From the NCBI RefSeq assembly GCF_949628265.1, contig NC_088790.1, positions 12,528,545-12,592,544 of the forward strand: a stretch of 64,000 nt of DNA, in the 5' to 3' direction. A model generated the notes under the pieces. That model saw only the letters and a program-made list of their open reading frames with translations. It did no database searches and was not told the DNA's origin. The DNA comes from Cloeon dipterum. Its lineage: Eukaryota > Arthropoda > Insecta > Ephemeroptera > Baetidae. The position numbers and the translations under genes were made by a program. Positions 3,001 through 40,000 of the stretch are shown one piece after another (position 1 is the first letter of the stretch; each line of letters starts with the position of its first letter).

Positions 3001-6000
3001 GCGCGAGGACAACACAATTTGCCACTTTTTGCAGAAGTGCCACTTAGGGGGAATCCTCATTTTTGTCATTTCGCTGCATGAGCCTTTCATTCAAGTCAAA
3101 TTGTACGCCATTGAAAACGCCAGACTTCAAGCAAATTTAGTCGACAATGGACACATCCTGCACAATCAGGTGGAATAAACAGTTTATTAATATTCAATTT
3201 AACTCCATCAAGAACCTTGTTTTTAATTCCCATTTAAATACTGATTTCAGTACTTGTTCCCATTTCTCGACGAGTGCGATAAGATCAAAATAGCGATGCA
3301 CCTGCACTCGTTCGCGTATGACCACCACTTGCGTTGTATCCATAATTACATCACCAAGCATAACAGTCTGCTCTCGCTCAACTTCCACCTGAAAAACTTC
3401 CTCGACGACTTTATCAAATACTACTCCAAGGCCCCCAACTTCGCCAGGAATCTCGTTTACGCTGGTGAGTTGCTTCAAAAAACATCCAAGCGTGTTTTTT
3501 CACAATTGAAATGTTTGTAGACGGTGTTAGAGTTACGGACACAAAAATGCCAGCTCTACAGCTGTTCAACTTTTTGTGGACTCACGTGGACCTTTACAAG
3601 ATGGAAGTGTTCTGCATGAGCCCTGAAAACGAGTTTGCTACGGTAAATACTCTTTGCAAATTTTAATAAAAATATTTTTTCCTCCAAATTTTAAATCATT
3701 AAAAACAATTATTTTAAGGGAACTTGTTAGATTCTAGTAAGTCTTGTATGAAATGCAAAGAGATATGTTCATAGACAATTTTTTATACTATTTTTAAATT
3801 CCAATACTAAACCTTAGGGGTTTGTTTAAGACTCTTCTCTACCATCTGACTAATGGTAGAGGAAAAAACTTCACTATAATATTATTCTCTACAGATTGAA
3901 TTTTCTATTTCCTGTTATTGACTTCTAATTTATTGCTGTTTTTCGTGCTTTATAATCAAATTAAAAAGGAATGGAAGAAATTTTAATTTGACTTTACGAG
4001 CGACTGATGAAAAATGCTCTGAATTGATTCTGTCGAATATTTCAAAGAAGAATGGTGGTGAATTTTCGACGTTGAAATTTATTCTCTTTGCTTTAAAAGT
4101 AAAATCCATCATGGAAAATATCATTTTTCATAGTACAATTTAAGATATACTTGTTGGTTTTAACTTAGCTACAATTCTCTTTGTGCAGGAAAATGAGTAC
4201 GTGCTAGTGCAGCTGAAGAGTGTAATTGCCTCTGAAGAAAATAATAAGCAAAACATGGATAAACCCGATAAAGAAGAAATTAATAAGCAAAAAATGGATG
4301 TACCCGATAAGGAAGAAAATAATAAGCAAAAACCCGATAAACCAGAAATTTTTGACGTCACGCTGGTGGTGTCAAATGTGCCAGGTGGCGAAGAGGATGT
4401 CGGCAATGCCACCAACGTTCTCAACCTGAAATATTACATCCTGCTCACAAGCCACAGGTCAGTATTAAATTTATTCAGGCTCGTTCGTAGCTACACCTTT
4501 TAGAATGAGAATAAATTACCCCATTTATCATAATGAAAATAACAACGCTTCCGCTCATTTGCCAGCTTTAGTGTTCATATTAAACAAACCATTTGCAGCA
4601 AAATGTTCCCAAAAATTGCTATCGAGGTTGAGCGCAGTCTTGGCAAGTTCCGCAACGTGCCGCTGGCTACGCCGCCGCACTTTCCCTCATACATGTCCAT
4701 GGCGGCCAGCAATGCCGGCTTTGATGACAAGGGCCTGCCCGAAGAAAGTCCTTCCGGCACAGATGACATCTGCGAAGACGAAAACGATGAAGCCTCACGC
4801 GTGGAGCCGCAGCTGTCGTCCGACATGCAGCTTTCTTCCGACATGCAGCTGCTCTTCCCTCAAATAGAAATCAAGTAATTCGCTAGAACCTCATGATCAT
4901 ACATTTAATTCCCATTTTACATTATCTCCTTCCCCGAAAGCACTTTGTAATGTTATTGAAACCTCAGTTGGAAAAATTTCTATTTGTCGATTGGTCTACT
5001 TTGCAGGCAGGAAAACGTTAAGTACATGGGCTATTACTCGCTGCACGAGCAGACGATGCAACGGCTTATCCTGGATCAAGCCAACAAGGCGAGGGATCAG
5101 GTGCTTAGCATGGTGCATCAGGGCATGGAACACTGCCGCACGCACATACTGTGGGAGACATTGCTCCGCACCTCTGCCGAAGCGGAGGACAAAGCCAAGA
5201 GAAAAGATGTAAGGTTTAACAACAAAATTCATTGCCTATCTAACAAAAATTTAAATTAACTGTGTGAGTTATAAAATTTAAGCGTGTATCCAAGCCCTAT
5301 TAAAATTAGAACACATCATATTATAAATACTATAATTTTCTTTTGTTTTTCTGCGCAGCTGACGTTCAACGAATTTCACGAGCTTCTCCGACTGGCCTCA
5401 ATGGAGTCGCTGAGTAGTCTTGACCCTCGTCTGAACCCGTTGCTGTGCCAGCCGCTGCTGTGGTACCAGAACTTAGAGAAGGTGCTGATCGCCAAGTACG
5501 GCGCCAACGAGATTCGCCGCTACAGCTCTGGGGACCAGGGCATCCAGCACACAGTTGTGCTCTCGACCAATTATCTTGAAGCCTTTATGCTGCTCTCAGT
5601 TGATTCTCACACCTCCAGAGGGGTAAGTAGTGTCTCTTTGAATCCTATTTATGTGATTTGCGGCTCAGTGCGGCGTGAGATAAGTATTGTTTTCAAGCGT
5701 TTTTGCAGTTTTCTGCTAGCATTTGTTTGCCCGTTCTTACCATGTCTAAATTTGATGTATTTAAATTTTGTGACTATGACAGTAGGAATAAACAAATATA
5801 TAAAAAAATATCTTAATAGCAATTAATTCAGAATCGACATATTTTTACTGGCACTGCAAGATTTAAGCATAAAAATTTTCGAAAAAATATTGAAGTACGC
5901 TCTGGCAGTTATATGTAAATAAAATACTTGATAATATTAAATTTAGTGATCTCAACAAGAAAAAACACTGGAGTTTGATAAAAGATAAAAATACTGGCTG

Positions 6001-6268
6001 AAACCAATTGGTATTTGTTTAAATTACTTGATTTTCCTATTTTTATTGTTTTGTAACGATGACTGTTAAATAAACATTGTTATCCGTCCCTTATATTTGT
6101 AGCACGGCATGATGTGATTCTTTCCGTTTGCAGGAGCTGTCTGTGGTGTGCAGAAAGGGTCACGTGGAGACCCTGCACAGTCTGAGGTACAACTCGCCGT
6201 TGCTGCGGGGCTTGGTCGAAGACTTTGTCAACGCCTGCTCATTCCACCTCTGGGCTAGCCTCATTTAA
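1..6268 (+). CDS. SZT2: SZT2-like KICSTOR subunit, C-terminal part (5' end outside window)
   Basis: Exons: 1-126 (frame starts at base 3), 205-269, 324-529, 701-1076, 1535-1726, 1773-1998, 2055-2196, 2497-2593, 2649-2860, 2920-3169, 3251-3464, 3521-3642, 4189-4457, 4599-4874, 5007-5208, 5359-5622, 6134-6268 (TAA). All introns are GT-AG and the phases agree, giving 1,123 codons plus stop. Family features recalled for SZT2 include IWKQGKVNLDLL at the left edge, YTYNWSKD followed by QKMGLFH, a FAYDHHLR segment, and the ending NACSFHLW. SZT2 is the very large scaffold (over 3,000 residues in vertebrates) of KICSTOR. KICSTOR holds GATOR1 on lysosomes and so restrains mTORC1 when amino acids are scarce. 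The acceptor at 1773 could equally be 1776 (CAGCAG). Oddity: an in-frame 13-residue tandem repeat in the 4189-4457 exon. The identification comes from memory of the family, not from a search. Confidence 0.85.
4240..4344 (+). repeat. Coding minisatellite, 39-bp unit, about 2.7 copies
   Basis: Units lie at 4240-4278, 4279-4317 and 4318-4344 (partial, with one codon missing). Each encodes a 13-residue block of the pattern (N/I)NKQ..D.PDKEE. The repeat sits in frame in an SZT2 exon, between the hydrophobic segment YVLVQLKSV and the segment FDVTLVVSNVPG. The block is charged, lysine/glutamate rich and probably an unstructured linker. Confidence 0.85.
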
Positions 6269-6880
6269 TCTATTTGATACCCACTCAAGACTGACAACCA
6301 CAATGTAGATTCCGTTTTAGGTTTTCCACTCAGTCTTCATACTTTTACTCATATTTTGCAGATTTTCCTTTACATGTAAAAATAATGTGATCCCATATTG
6401 GTTCTGATTGTGTTGCAGGATACAGATTTATACAATGTTGGTTGTTTTATCAATTCTATTACTCATCAAATGATCAATAAATGAAATTATTGTTAAATGC
6501 AACTCATGCACTGTTTGTTTTTCCAGTTTAAAATTTCTCTTGGTTCAGGTAAGGAGAATTAAACATGTTCAATGAAAAATATTGACTTTTTATATCAGCT
6601 ATGAATGTGTTAGATAAGTCCATGTGAACAAAATGCTGAGATCTGCTCAAGTTGACATTCAGATCGCTAAATCTGTTTGAACCTAATGCAAGTGCAATAG
6701 AACACTTAACACAGCAAAATATTCGCTTAAAATCATTTTCACGATACTTAAAAACAATCCACTTCTGAAGTTTCATCTTTTTCTGAAGAACAGTACTGTT
6801 TTTTTTCTCTACATGAGTTCACCCAAATGAAAGATAGTGGCTCAAAAAGAATACATGAACGATTGGACTTAACATAAATT
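6269..6880. other. Convergent 3' region between SZT2 and NSD
   Basis: The stop codons of the plus-strand SZT2 gene and the minus-strand NSD gene face each other across about 610 bp of AT-rich sequence. An AATAAA on the plus strand at 6476-6481, 208 bp after the SZT2 stop, is the likely SZT2 polyadenylation signal. No coding potential was seen on either strand. The two 3' UTRs probably lie very close together or overlap. Confidence 0.6.
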
Positions 6881-21860: not shown

Positions 21861-24241
21861 GAATGCTAGGTTGCCAGGTCTCCCAACACAGGTAGATCCA
21901 TTTCGGTCATCTGTATTGTAAAGAATTGGGAGAGTAAAAAGCAGCGATTCTGCCGCGAATAAATCTTTCCGTGGTTGGGCTCTCGCGCTCTATTTTGGGC
22001 CTATTTTTACTTTGATTTGTAATAAAGAATCTGACCTACCTCAAGATACAAGGATGTGATTAACGAGATGAAATAGTTACATTTTGATCTAGTTTATTAT
22101 TTTCAAAAAATAACCCTAAATTGACAGACAAGCCAATATATTTTTATTAATTGCTGGTTTATAATATTTTGTAATTCTATTATCCCTTATTTTTTATTAT
22201 ACAAGAAATTCAGGTTTTTGAAAAGAAACGAATAAATTTTTCGTGTAACAAAAATTCCTATCCCTTTATTGCTTTGCTTTCTATTCAACACAAATGTGTC
22301 CTTAGCGTCCTCGTCGTTTTCGTTCCCAGTATATTAATTGGTATGTATAACGGTGCAACAATAATTGATATTTTAACACTAATATCGACTTCATGCGCAT
22401 TTACATTTTTCAAAACTATATAATTTTTATATATGTGTGGTGTAACATTGTTTCACATATTCTCTGCAAATTTATTTGATCAGCGTTATCGAGGCGACGA
22501 TTTTATCGCACGTTTTAGTGGACCCTTTTATCTGTTGTAGCTTTATTTGTTCATGATTTACAAAAATTTGAGCAAATTTTGGAAATGGGAGTAATACAAG
22601 TGACATATATTCACAACCCTGATTTCAATGAAATGATAAAAAGATTTATTGCGATCCAAAAAGTAAAAGATAAAGCAAAAATATTTCCGTCAAATAATAA
22701 TTAATATGTATAATTTGACCAAGGAATGAACCAAGGCGTATTTTCAACATGTGCGGGAATGTAGTTAAGTTCCATTTTGGATTAGAATTTAATTTATATT
22801 ATGTAGCACTTTAAATACAGTAGATTTATTGAGAAATATTTCATCCGCCGTTATTTTTCATGTACGCAGGATAGCTGCACCTGTAAGAACAATAGTAATC
22901 CGACCTTTTCTTCCGCCAGTTAAAATCCGAGTTTTCGCTTAGTGTCTCATGGCTATCGAACATGAAAAAATTGCTATTCATATCCATATTTCTAGTATAT
23001 GGCATTCTAATTAAACAATTTGTGATAAATTGGAGGTGTGTATACGTCAATATTCTATATAATTTATGGCACCACTTCATGCAAAGGTACCTTACAATTT
23101 ATTCTCTCAATCTGAAAAATTGGCGAATCATTTCATTCTTTCACAGCGTCAACATGAGGCGATATTTTATCTTAAAATATATAAAATGCAGCGTGTTGTG
23201 TGATATAACCTAATTTTGATGATGCTCTCTTCTCCTTTCTTTGCCTGTGTACATATTATAAATTGATGCATCTCTATAGTCTCTTGACACCAAAAACCGA
23301 TGAATTTTCTACAGCGCTGTCCTAATTTTTTATTTATATTGGAAAGCACAAAACTCATTGCATTGGTATTTCTTGGCAGAGTTTCCAAATTTTTTCTTAT
23401 ATTTAATCGATAATTTGACTTTGTTCTCAGGCGGAATTTGGCTAACAATTACAACTAATGCGACTAGTCAAGTGTGCCATTTATTTTGTGGACTGATAGC
23501 ATTAAATATACGTGTGCATAAATCATATTTACCAGTGCCATTCAAACATTCACCCACGATTTTTGGTGATAGAAGTATTGCCAGTGAAATTACAAGGAAA
23601 ATTAACCCAACGGGATCTACTCTAAATGCATTTTATTTATTATAATTTTTAACGAGGGAGGGTGGCCAAGAGAGAAAAATTAACTCGCACGTGTGTGAAG
23701 TGGACGAAGTTGCTGTTTTGTTACTATTAAATGAAGGTATTCATTCATCTTTTGACACGAAAGAAGACAAATTTCAGTGTTCCTCAATTAAGGCAGCAAT
23801 TTCTGCCTTATCAAAAAGGACTTTAGTGGAAAGTGTCTTGAAATAATTAGTGAATAAATATTGAAATGCAAGAAGCATCAGAAAACATGAATATAATTCC
23901 CATTTATCCCAAACTGGTAATAAACATCACCTGAAATTAAAAAAAAATAAAGGTTGTCCATCAAACTAGACTGAAGAAACATAAAGTGAGAATAGAATGT
24001 GCAAAAGTAAATTTAGAAAGAAAAGAAAAATGTAGATAACCCATTAATACTTATCTCTTTTGTTAATTATTCGAAAGCAATACATGCTTAACAAATTAAA
24101 CTGTAACTTTTAAATTAAAGCCGCATTTATCTAGACATGTAGAATAAGCACCGCGAGTTCAGCCACGACTATTATTATTCGATCTTTGTTCAAATTTCGC
24201 CTCTTAATCTTAACATTAAAAATCAATCGAGGAAAAAATCT
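21861..24241. other. Intergenic, AT-rich
   Basis: About 2.4 kb separates the BTB gene's first exon from the TRPC 3' end. It should hold the BTB promoter and the TRPC 3' UTR. Several reading frames of 60-100 codons are present but show no domain, codon bias or splice context. No repeat family member was recognised. Confidence 0.5.
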
Positions 24242-24358
24242 TCAAATCCTGGTGTACCTCCTTGTCTTGTACAGGGCGAGCGTGCGCAGGTTGTTGTGCG
24301 CCATCGACGACTCGGCGTCGGCGCCGACCGCCAGCAGCGGCGGCGCCGGTGACCGCAG
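24242..24358 (-). other. Open frame downstream of the TRPC stop (possible readthrough or alternative C-terminus)
   Basis: After the TAG at 24361-24359 the same frame stays open for 38 codons to a TGA at 24244-24242. Base composition stays GC-rich like the coding exon and becomes AT-rich only after the TGA. The extension ends LALYKTRRYTRI, which echoes the main terminus [11 protein letters not shown]. The TAG sits in the palindrome GCAGCTATAGCTGC and is followed by C. Whether this is translated by readthrough, used by an alternative splice form, or is a decayed duplicate is not decidable from sequence alone. Confidence 0.45.
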
Positions 24359-27300
24359 CTATAGCTGCGTGTACAGGTGCGTCTTGTAGAGATCGCACGG
24401 CGGCGGAGGCGGTGCCGGCGGCGGCACCGGCGGCCGGATCAGCGGCGGCGGCAGCGGTGGCCCGTGGCTCAGCGCCGGCGACGCCATTGCCGACGGCACC
24501 GACGCTTGCATCGCCAGCTCCCGCAGCGCGTCACGCAGCTCGGCGCGCACGCTAGCCACGATCTCGCGTTTCAGCGACTCCAGCGTCTCGGTGCCGACCG
24601 GTGGCGCCGACTCGGACCGCATCGCCGCCGTCGATGAACTGCTGCCGCACAGACCCGTCGACGCCATGCTCCCTGAAAAAGATTTTATTATTAATTATTC
24701 ATTTATTACTTATCCTCCTGATTAATTATTTTTTAATTGTATTTTACCATGTAATGAATGCTGTAGAAGTGGCGGTGGTGGAGGTGGAACTTGCAGGTCA
24801 ACGACAGGGTGATGCGCCCTGAGCATGCCCAGGTCGAATGAACGCTGCTGAGGTGGAGGCAGCGTCTGCGGGGGCGTCGGCAGGCTGGAGCGTACGGAAC
24901 GCACGATTTCTTTCTTGATCGTGTCCAGATGGGCCGAGGTGCGTGCGCTCTCGCGTTTCCTGTCTTCCCTCAGCTCATATCTGAGACCAGACACGTGATA
25001 ATTTGCTTGATAAGATTGGTGTTAGAAATTAAATATATAGTCATTAAAATATCAAGAAAATGTCGAAATTTCAAGGCATGTAAAAGGTGGCTGAGAATTT
25101 ATAAAAGGGACAACATGGCTGGAGGAAAACACATTTTTTTACGTACTCATAGCTTCTTTTCAACAACTTTTGTAACCTAAAGTAAAGGAAAAATATTATT
25201 TGGCAATACCTTTTGCATTGCCAACAGGAAACAGACCAGTAAGACTCATTGTCAGTTAATTATGAAGAAAAATTATAAATTTTCGGTTTGGTTAATAGTT
25301 TGTGCTCCTTTTATGGTAAAAACACCATATTATTTCAGTCACAAAGAAAATATATCCATTTTGCCCTAAAATAATACAACTTCAACTATCAAAATATTCA
25401 CCTAAGGCTGGAGATGTCCTGTTTAATTTCGAGTAGGTCATCCTCGTTGACGCCGTCCTGTCTGAACTGCTTCTTCATCTTGTGGATGTATCTGTTGACG
25501 AGGCGTCGCATAATTTCGTTGTACTGTGTCTGATGCTGCATTGGAGGCCCCTGCTGCCAAAAAAAGTTTCAGCGTCAGAAAACTTGCTCAACTCATTCCG
25601 TATCGACTGACAGAACTTTCCACAGAAGTTTGGCGTCCTGTGGAATTTGTGTCCCCGTCCTGGAAGCAACGATTTAATTATATGTAGCGTCTTATGTGCG
25701 TGGCAAGAATTTTTAATGCAAGCTGTTATATGCTCAAAGGGAAAGTTTGGTGTATGAAATGAAAAATTACCAACAAAGAAACAAGAGCTTTGCCAGGGAT
25801 ATGATGCATGACGACAGGAGTTCCAGGAAGTAAATAATAAATAATGTTTCAAATTTAAAAGTTAAATTATAATTTAAAATGAGAATTTCGAGCGTTAATT
25901 CCAAAATATGCAACCTGTTTGGCATCGGAGTCGAGCGGAATGTCTATTCTCACTTACCGCGAGCAGGCCTTTCTCTGCTGTGGCGGGACGAGGCATGTTG
26001 GCGTGCGGAACCTTGGGCCGGCTGTACAGCTGCACCAGCAGGCCCTTAATGCCCTTGAAGAAGTAGAATACCGACTTGGGGCTGATGATGACGTTGAAAG
26101 GCGGTGGAAGGGTGCAGCCCTCGTCGAAGTAGCTCATCCACAGCTTCGATCGAGCAAACTTCCACTCTTGATCAGCGTGGTCCTACAAAATTTTTCTCGT
26201 GATGCAATTTCATCTCGTAAAATATTTTAAAATATAAATCTTAAATACAAGATAGAAAGCAGTTTTATTTTTAGAATATAATTAATTTTCAACTTGCCTC
26301 GATAACTTGGAAGCTGTTGGACATCATGGCAATGAGCATGTTGATGAGGACTATGATGCTGAGCACGTGGTAGGCCATGAACAAGCCCTGACCGACGAAT
26401 TCCACGAAAGGGTGCGCGTCTACAAGTTCGGTGCTTTTCGGCGAACTGATACCAAACAGGGACCAGAAGAGGGTGGCGAAGGTAACGTCCAAACTGAAAT
26501 TATTTAGTTAATATCTTGCTCGTATTTCAGAACTGAGAAATACAAAAAAAAATATTTGAAACAGAAAGTTAAAAAAATGGCTTCACCTTGTTATATTTTG
26601 ATAAAAAAATTACTTTCTTAAAAGTTTTCAAAGAGAGCGAGCCAAAAATATAAAAGATGTGAAAAAATATGTAAATATACCAAAGGCAATTTTAATGGAT
26701 TTTTTCGGACATTTTGCACATTAATTTGATTCAATAAAAGGATTTTTCATGCTTTCCTTATCTTGACACAAGTTTATCAACAACATTTATTTGACTATCA
26801 GATTCTTACGTGGTAAAGGCGTCCGAGTTAGACTGGCATTCCATCTGGCCATTGGGCCGCTGTTTGCAGTGCTCAGTGCTGGAGTCGTAGTACCAGTAGA
26901 GCTGATTGAGACCGCACGCGAAACTGGTCAGCACCAGGAAGAAGATGAAGAGGAACTTTGCGATATCTACGTTTGAAAAGTTGGTAATGCTCCGAGACTG
27001 ATAACGCACGATGTGGAAAATTACCTATAATCATGCAGCCGAGCGAGATCTGCAGAGGACCCAAGTGCGGATTCGTCTGGAAGAGGTAAATGATGCGCGC
27101 AAAGCTGAAGACGTTGGCGACAGCGAACACACCCTCTGCTATTAGGGTGGGGTCGTTGTTGGGCCACTGACTGCGTGGTAGTTCCCTGGTGGAAAAACTG
27201 GAGCTAAGACGCAGGGTACAACAACAACACATGTCACGGTTAAAATTGTTTTAATTTGAATTTATTTAAGGCATTTCAAAGTTTGCATTTATACTAAATA

Positions 27301-37021: not shown

Positions 37022-40000
37022 ACAAGCAAATCTGTTTTTCCGGTGCGGTGCTAAAAGCGCGAGAGGCAAAAAGTTCGCCAAAAATTGAAATAATAACTCG
37101 GACTGAACTAGGGTGAAATATCTTCACGTGCTAAATCAGAGCACGAATGAGTAACTTTTAACTCGAATATTTGGTTTTTTGTTTGCACGTGGGAGTATAT
37201 TAAAACAGAGCTACATGTGCATTCATTTTGCCTTTTCGTGAAATCCATGAAAATTGCTCAAAACCTTTCTGTATGCCAAGATATAATATGATATTATGCT
37301 CAACGAATTGCTTGTATATACTAAATAAGGGGACTTTTTTTTTAAAAAAAAGTGCTCTTTACTTTGCTAAAATACACATTCCGTACAAATGAGTCTTATA
37401 AATCTTTAACCCTCTTTTAAAATCAATACCTATTCATTGCATTTTTAGTAGAACAGCAAGATTTCCTGCCTACCTTGAAGGCGGAAAGGATGGGGTCGTG
37501 GCTGGTCAGCGAAAGCCACGCGGGGCTGGCGAGCGCCTTGTACGTGTGGATGCGCTTGAGAGAGTAGCGAAGGCTGTCCGACTGCTTGCTCTCTTCGCAC
37601 TGCCGGCAGAAGCAGTTCAGGGGGTGCGGCTTGTCGATGTAGGCACCTGAAATTATACAGCAAACTCTAATGGAGAAATGAAGATTAAAATTATTAAAAT
37701 TCACACGCAAACTAGGACACTGATCGTAGCAAAACTTATTTACCTGTTTAATTTCTAAACATATTTCAAATTCTTTAAGAAAGAATATTATTTTTTGCTC
37801 TTTTTATCTCTGTCCTCTCGGACCGGGAAGGGCGCGCACTCCACTAGCACGAATGCTGAAACCCGGGTCCCAATAACACCGCGAACGGATAACATGGGCG
37901 CACCAGGCCGCACAGGGACCCAGCCCACTCAAGGGCCACTTGCCTCTGCACCGAGGACTGCATTGAAACGCTAGACATTCGTCTCGTGAAGCCAAAATCA
38001 CGCATGCTGGAAAGGTGCAAACCAGCAAGTAGAGAATTATTTGTAAAATAATTTATTTTATACAATTAAACTAATGCAACTGGCAGAGTGTATTAAATTT
38101 TCCACATTAAGAATTTGACTGTAGCACATCATCATTTTTATTTTGTAATGCAATATTTTATGTGTTTGATTTCCTTAAATTTCTTGGTTATAAAAAACAT
38201 ATTTTAGTATAATTGGCAACCAGCAGCTCCTTAAGCCATACAAGTTAAAATTAAATATATGTGTGAATTATATAATAAGTATTAATGTATAAAAATGTTA
38301 TTAAATCAACAAGATCTAATGAAATCAAGGAACTCACCTCTGGCAAGGAAGAGCTGCAAGATTTCAAACTGGTTGCAGTGGGCGGCGAGGATGACGGGCG
38401 AGATGTCCGGTGAAAAGTCTGAACTCTCCTCTGTGGAAGGTCGCGAGCGGCTCCAGCCTGAGGCCAGCATTGAAGCCGAGATGCTTGGATGGTCAATGAG
38501 CAGCTCGACGATGCGCAACACTCCCTCCGTAATTGCGTGCAGCAGAGCATCTCCTGCTTCCAATACTTGATTAATGGGCATGTTTATTTTACAGGCGATT
38601 GGCTTTTTCTTTCGAGTTTTGGTGATTTATGCAGATTGAAGTTCATAAATTTGAGACTTGAGCTCTGGTGTCGTGATAGCAAAATTTTTAAAATGGATTA
38701 TTTGACTTTTTCTTGTTTAAATGTTTGTAAATTGGCATATTTATTAATTTATAACTTCAAATTTAAATCGTTTCTTATACAAGATTTTTAATGTATTCTG
38801 TCTTATTTATTCCATGGAAAATTAGGGAAGGAGGGGAAGAAAAGAGACCCATTCAAAATAAAATATAATATTTGTTAAACAAAATAAAATAAAATGGGAC
38901 AAAGAATATTTTAAATGGAGTCCGAGTGCATTTTTGTGAGTTAAAAACCAATTGCCTTTAAAGTTTTTAAAAAATCTCCAGTAAAAATTATAGAATAAAA
39001 TTATTTTGGAATGAACACAAGGCTCAAGACAAAGGAGCAGGGCAAAAATAATTGATTTGTAGCCCAGTTAAGGTGTTAATCACACCTATTTTGATGTCTG
39101 GCTGCTGAAGGAGGATTTCGACGAGCTCAACGTTTTCATTGTCGACGGCAATCTGGAGTGCAGAGCGACCAAGCAGGTCTGTGCAGTTGACGTTGACCGA
39201 TCTGGGCGCCAGCAAGCATCGCTCTATCGTGTGCTTGTCACCGCGTTCAGCCGCCTCCAGAAACGTCTTCTCCGTCGCCTCCAGAGACCTCCCACTCTGA
39301 AAAAATAAAACAAAAATGCATGAGATAATTTGATTGATGATAAGTAATTTGTTTTTTAACTGCTTGTCAACTTTTTTAATTCAATAACAAAAGTGTTTTA
39401 TTATGTTTTGTTTTAGGCAGTGGAGACCAGATTCGCGCATTCCGCAGCTGTGGCGTCAGCTGGAAGATGACGTGTGAAAATGTGGTCAAGAAGCGAGTTT
39501 TCAATAACATATTGTGATGTAATTTGCATTACATGAATTAACTACGCCAATGAGATCGGAAAAACGCACTCGCGTAAATCGTACAGAGAGAAAAACAGAG
39601 CTTTACTTCTCACTTTTCAACGTCATGTTGGATCTTACCGACGGGAACAAATTTTGAAGCACATTTGGCCAGTGCTGGTTTCATGAACAAGAAATCAATT
39701 TACACATTATGTCCAGACTGCCAATCAGCACTTTTTAGTCTTATAAATTCGATAAATTCAACCCCATTTTAAAATCGCCATAGAGTGTCTAAATAAAGCA
39801 CTAAACCGCTTAACAATTACACATGGCAGTGTTAAAAGATCGAGATCAAACAAGGATTATTGTAGAAATCCATGGTGTGCATGTTTAATTTAATTAACAA
39901 AAAGCTTTGATCGCTCCGATAATTTGGAACTGATTTTTCAAAGGAAGAAGATAAAATTAAGAAACTTCAGCGCTACTGGTTGTTACAATATACATGTTCA

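Follow-up and report, generated by a model that had tools for sequence, protein, structure and literature searches.

Translational readthrough is abundant in most of the insects tested and in D. pulex, and not in the tested species outside Pancrustacea (PMC5100048). Apis and Tribolium fall below the readthrough threshold, and in a mosquito and a fly no fewer than 5-6% of stops undergo functional readthrough (PMC5100048). Among the stops concerned TGA is commonest and TAG second, with loss more frequent at TAG and TAA; a stimulating RNA structure is predicted in just 9-10% of readthrough candidates, and those D. melanogaster candidates that have one show a higher share of TAG, an effect that is not significant in A. 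gambiae (P = 0.18) (PMC5100048). Potential PDZ recognition sites were noted earlier in validated readthrough extensions (PMC4999894). Among the literature found, the nearest demonstrated parallel to the locus described here appears to be AQP4ex, the readthrough form of mammalian aquaporin-4, in which loss of the 29-amino-acid tail mislocalises the channel and of which the short form ends in the PDZ-type ligand SSV (PMC6444679). Within the TRPC family itself, Drosophila TRP is tethered by PDZ3 of INAD via its C-terminal tail (PMC6300352).

Here we analysed a 64,000-nucleotide stretch of Cloeon dipterum DNA, the whole of which we call the window, where the frame of a TRPC-type gene continues for 38 codons beyond its TAG. 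This candidate resembles pancrustacean readthrough in that it concerns an insect gene whose second ORF is at least 10 codons long, has a coding signature in frame 0 and follows TAG, the second-preferred stop; it differs in being known from the sequence of one genome (PMC5100048). Moreover, the terminal ligand of its short form recurs at the end of its extension, a case of which no description was found in PMC5100048, whose main text lacks the words 'PDZ' and 'trp'. With AQP4ex it shares a membrane channel, a short C-terminal readthrough extension and a PDZ-type ligand on the short form, but AQP4ex is a vertebrate water channel in which readthrough was shown experimentally, and a PDZ ligand repeat in its extension is not mentioned in the accessible part of PMC6444679. 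Like Drosophila TRP, the window gene belongs to the TRPC family and has a C-terminal tail for a PDZ scaffold, its own anchoring being a prediction (PMC6300352); unlike Drosophila TRP, it ends in T-x-L or T-x-I and not in the GWL type, letters that were not found as a word in the accessible text of PMC6300352. A PDZ ligand in a readthrough extension is therefore not new as such, and the unusual part is that it is a near-copy of the ligand of the short form. No extension with such a near-copy was described among the literature matches listed, nor was a TRPC readthrough case among them (titles and abstract openings, with most subscription journals outside the search).

A TRPC-type gene with two in-frame stops

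The gene occupies the minus strand of the window, with putative exon borders, and is recognised as a TRPC member by TRP_2, ankyrin repeats and an ion-transport domain found in order. Nine exon frames were searched against Pfam, of which five matched something (one only below the cut-off) and four nothing; Ank_2 and Ank_4 were above the cut-off in one exon, and Ion_trans just above it in two. Minus-strand open frames that match at least one stretch from the five other TRPC genes of the same genome lie at 39.4-37.4 kb (ankyrin, TRP_2), 35.9-34.8, 28.7-28.2, 27.3-26.8, 26.5-26.3, 26.18-25.96 and 25.52-25.40 kb, and several TRPC frames of the gene also match PDB TRPC proteins or Pfam TRPC domains, its best PDB relatives being TRPC and TRP-gamma. 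The exons at 24.98-24.75 and 24.67-24.24 kb were assigned to the gene by in-frame joining: only the first residues of the penultimate exon match paralogs and PDB chains, and the last exon has no match in the same-genome TRPC stretches compared. The exons that matter here are these (window positions; a slash marks a splice junction):

37426..37803, minus strand: open frame with the TRP_2 exon (Pfam TRP_2 1.3e-19, 70.6 bits; PDB TRP-gamma and TRPC)
26292..26507, minus strand: open frame with the pore/S6 exon (Pfam Ion_trans just above cut-off; PDB TRPC4/5/6/3, then TRP-gamma)
25958..26182, minus strand: exon ending ...GLLA (paralog matches 47-72% identical)
25402..25520, minus strand: TRPC tail exon, upstream border not fixed (matches PDB TRPC3/6 and TRP-gamma, and five paralogs)
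24748..24980, minus strand: penultimate exon, ending ...HSLH, donor ATG/GTAAAA (in-frame joining)
24242..24672, minus strand: last TRPC exon, to the distal TGA; acceptor ...TTTTTCAG/GGAGC, phase-1 entry (putative, from in-frame joining with the penultimate exon)

Two side observations concern this structure. A probable GC-AG intron lies around 26297, with donor GAG/GCAAGT and acceptor TTTTGTAG/GAC. In addition, the penultimate exon (24980-24748) and the last exon (24672-24362) have in common a motif LDxIKKEIVxSVRxxL followed by polyproline, a likeness reached in 5 of 2000 shuffles, a figure that is overstated since shuffling breaks the proline runs; it suggests that the tail of the gene may have grown by intragenic duplication.

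The end of the last exon reads, in the direction of transcription:

24362..24391, minus strand: first (canonical) C-terminal decapeptide by translation, with class-I-type PDZ ligand T-x-L (YTQL)
24359..24361, minus strand: first stop TAG, followed by C (UAG-C)
24245..24358, minus strand: 38-codon in-frame extension LRSPAPPLLAVGADAESSMAHNNLRTLALYKTRRYTRI, with coding-like codon positions
24245..24274, minus strand: second C-terminal decapeptide LYKTRRYTRI, with class-I-type PDZ ligand T-x-I (YTRI), identical to the first end at 6 of 10 residues
24242..24244, minus strand: second stop TGA

A C in the +4 position after a stop favours leakage. Class I PDZ ligands follow the rule S/T-x-hydrophobic at the C-terminus, as in TRPC4/5, which end in TTRL. 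Both ends of the window gene, assigned to this class by their letters only, fit the rule at a free C-terminus. The sequence-only reading had described the two ends, their shared letters and the open frame between them, and its facts proved correct in every checkable particular, with the minus strand left unsaid; its view that coding-like sequence continues in frame past the TAG up to a second PDZ ligand of class-I type is, on this one genome, supported by the analyses below. The peptide SPAPPLLAVGADAESSMAHNNLR lies wholly beyond the TAG and is specific to the extension, which, searched against the genome (E up to 10), matched only itself. Compared with the PDB with its TAG read as X, the last exon drew two matches at E values up to 10, to a GABA-A receptor chain (E = 0.0095) and to an amidohydrolase (E = 1.7), both taken as chance. 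In viral contigs, 75 pattern matches to the last-exon peptide upstream of the TAG came up and none was confirmed, and no tRNA was found in the window under bacterial settings.

Coding signal past the TAG and likeness of the two ends

The composition of the extension follows that of the exon: its GC content is 0.684, while the preceding 100 codons have 0.727 and the 300 nt that follow the TGA have 0.287. By codon position the GC content is 0.579/0.553/0.921, an excess at third positions that none of 5000 dinucleotide shuffles of the segment (114 nt) reached; expressed the other way, A or T occupies positions 1, 2 and 3 in 16, 17 and 3 of the 38 codons (33 of 76 for the first two positions together; p = 8.6e-5). 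Codon positions were also scored with a model trained on four pieces of exons further upstream in the gene; it gave a score of 8.35 in frame and -16.1 and -6.8 in the other forward frames, and of 20,000 shuffled sequences (mononucleotide) 1 reached 8.35 in its best of three frames. Antisense coding does not explain the signal, since the reverse frames scored -4.6, 1.2 and -11.7 against 8.35. In a control that took both strands and all starts of the window, minus 24100-25000, together with nine paralog stretches, with coding exons kept in, 78 of 10,368 114-nt windows with a GC content of at least 0.60 reached this score; 74 of the 78 were open, and they fell in twelve 150-nt bins. What lies past the TAG is thus an in-frame second ORF with a coding signature specific to frame 0, the property sought in a readthrough candidate.

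The openness of the frame is not itself evidence, since 53% of 5000 dinucleotide shuffles are open over 38 codons, which is chance level, and one other forward frame is also open across the extension. The gene is nevertheless the exception among the terminal segments examined: at the ends of its paralogs the next in-frame stop follows after 5, 6, 6, 15 and 24 codons at a GC content of 0.20-0.33 in all five terminal segments, a control that covers four of the five paralogs, with the tandem last exons of one counted apart and the end of the fifth, on C2, not found. Because third positions stayed G/C while positions 1 and 2 did not, beside AT-rich non-coding DNA, the extension appears to have diverged while it was translated. 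We therefore believe that it was probably translated in the TAG-spanning frame for much of its history, although the composition test speaks to past translation in frame and a recent nonsense change would give the same signal.

The second line of evidence is the likeness of the two ends. Anchored at their stops, the terminal decapeptides are identical at 6 of 10 residues (L Y K T - - Y T - -), a match found in 0 of 5000 DNA shuffles (maximum 4) and 0 of 200,000 peptide shuffles. Specificity drops sharply under free local alignment with the proline-rich upstream exon, where 84 of 5000 shuffles do as well. The six kept anchor codons differ at 3 nucleotides, all of them synonymous, and over 33 nt the ends share 19 nucleotides. 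A whole 117-nt tandem unit, equal to the offset between the ends, was considered and rejected in a gapless test, as its first 84 nt are no more alike than codon shuffles: the two 39-codon units agree at 34 of 84 nt upstream of the decapeptide, which 8983 of 20,000 codon shuffles reach. The lack of detectable likeness before the decapeptides argues against a recent whole-unit duplication, and the repeated end would reflect either an old duplication of which only the anchor was kept or an anchor that arose twice.

Two further features surround the TAG:

24355..24368, no strand assigned: perfect 14-bp palindrome GCAGCTATAGCTGC, spanning the TAG and found once in the window
24304..24347, minus strand: predicted G+C-rich hairpin, first stem of 12 pairs, beginning 11 nt after the TAG (-28.4 kcal/mol for the 44-nt piece)

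The palindrome that had been pointed out around the TAG is real, yet as a signal it adds nothing measurable and was set aside: the window holds six perfect 14-bp palindromes, three of which are not simple repeats by a dinucleotide count. RNA structure likewise gives no proof of programmed readthrough, since the RNA around and after the TAG is not significantly more stable than shuffles (z from -0.5 to -1.4, with 20, 30 and 49 of 200 shuffles folding as well in three stretches).

Probable readthrough and its alternatives

Of the two routes to a long tail proposed from the letters, readthrough or an alternative splice form, the former is favoured, the sites available for splicing being mostly weaker, by simple counts, than the putative constitutive ones. 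UAG-C readthrough is the best single explanation for translation of the extension and more probable than not, and it is the likeliest route because the gene is an insect gene and readthrough is abundant in most insects tested (PMC5100048). We regard the locus as a good, unproven, single-genome readthrough candidate.

Under the splicing alternative, an event within the last two exons would remove the TAG and join the frame to the extension, so that the two tails would come from two mRNAs. Possible sites exist: the AG of the stop itself (CTATAG/CTG, phase 0) could serve as an acceptor, and a phase-0 donor in the penultimate exon, ATC/GTGCGT at 24904, matches the consensus at 6 of 9 positions, which equals the weakest putative constitutive donor, and is phase-compatible with phase-0 acceptors at the TAG, 24310 and 24265. 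Five donors within the last exon are also in phase 0, at 4-5 of 9, and one paralog has two tandem GWL-type last exons. Against this, the four putative donors of the gene score 6-7 of 9 and the 18 GTs that precede the TAG within the last exon reach 2-6, in a measure of splice-site strength that is a count of consensus matches; the single last-exon GT that scores 6 is in phase 1, for which no acceptor lies at or after the TAG, and the constitutive donor, also phase 1, cannot be joined in frame to any acceptor from the TAG onwards. Furthermore, the AG of the TAG and five later AGs have 1-3 T at positions -20 to -4, compared with 5, 7 and 8 in three putative constitutive acceptors, although total pyrimidine counts overlap (4-11 vs 7-11). 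On balance we consider it unlikely that splicing produces the long tail.

It is also unlikely, if a shade less so, that the TAG is itself young or wrong, that is, a recent nonsense change, a segregating null allele or an assembly error in a protein that normally runs to LYKTRRYTRI. Such a change, which the sequence-only reading had not listed, is a genuine rival: it would account for the coding signature past the TAG as well as readthrough does, and recent nonsense substitutions are a class that was filtered out via alignments in PMC5100048. However, the TAG falls in precisely the alignment column in which the second copy terminates, which makes the first copy resemble a real terminus; we infer that a nonsense change at random would seldom land there. 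An untranslated relic, in which tandem duplication of the gene end left a functionless in-frame copy in the 3'UTR, seems to us the least probable of these alternatives. Duplication would leave repeated ends in one frame, and the tail may already hold one repeat, that shared by its last two exons (with the overstated 5 of 2000); but no duplicate is detectable outside the last ten codons, so that any whole-unit copy must be old, and the frame, the 92% GC3 and the anchor persist beside a 3'UTR of 29% GC. The decayed tandem duplication offered earlier as the dull alternative thus receives little support, the likeness being confined to the last ten codons and third positions having stayed G/C.

If UAG-C readthrough does operate, the gene would make the short form of the channel, ending at a leaky UAG-C stop, while a fraction of ribosomes would insert an amino acid at the UAG and continue through 38 residues, mostly linker-like, to the TGA. 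The long tail would end in LYKTRRYTRI, a second version of the PDZ-type anchor of the short form, and a channel tetramer would carry short and long tails together, which would change the reach or the specificity of its anchoring to a scaffold. More tentatively, and with appreciably less confidence than in readthrough itself, we propose that the leaky UAG sits between two versions of one PDZ anchor: readthrough would neither make nor lose the anchor but would present a variant of it again on a tail 38 residues longer, as a switch of scaffold reach or partner, and the terminus would have been iterated, stop included, with both copies kept. That the two ends bind different PDZ partners, as had been suggested, is conjecture. 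In our judgement few readthrough extensions have a purpose that can be guessed, and here the extension carries a recognisable version of the anchor of the short form. Whether tail length or ligand variant decides the location of the channel is a directly testable question; if both tails are made, mixed-tail tetramers would differ in reach or partner, and if the proposal is true, both tails should be annotated wherever the gene is kept.

The TRPC family of the genome

The genome has six TRP_2 places, five of them outside the window. Four of the five TRPC paralogs have open frames that end in GWL or GWI, in contrast to the T-x-L and T-x-I ends of the window gene. Fly TRP ends in GWL and has a single terminus. 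Exons of the window gene disagree on its placement with respect to vertebrate TRPC and fly TRP-gamma: among solved structures in the PDB, the tail exon is closest to TRPC3 (5.9e-9; TRP-gamma 5e-6) and the pore exon to TRPC4/5 (4.8e-14; TRP-gamma 9.8e-10), whereas the TRP_2 exon is narrowly nearer to TRP-gamma (6.2e-15; TRPC5 1.8e-14). Three TRPC genes were reported in each of six insects, and some of those in Tribolium and Pediculus cluster apart (PMC2753570); the six TRP_2-bearing TRPC places of this genome may be set against this number. A spiny lobster TRPC clusters with a worm TRP-1 (PMC6150509).

Elsewhere in the genome (190 Mb), no exact five-unit arrays of TTAGG, TTAGGG or TTAGGC were found, and five 7tm_6 odorant-receptor matches, of the kind that points to an insect, occurred among 25 scored candidates (best 8.7e-12), all partial and two with internal stops. 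Finally, the TRPC paralog on C4 that starts near 15444956 has two tandem open frames, at positions 3978-4389 and 6194-6425 of its stretch, that both end in GRHLDGWL and a stop and are about 79% identical at the DNA level over about 370 nt; they may be alternative or decaying duplicate terminal exons that carry the same anchor.
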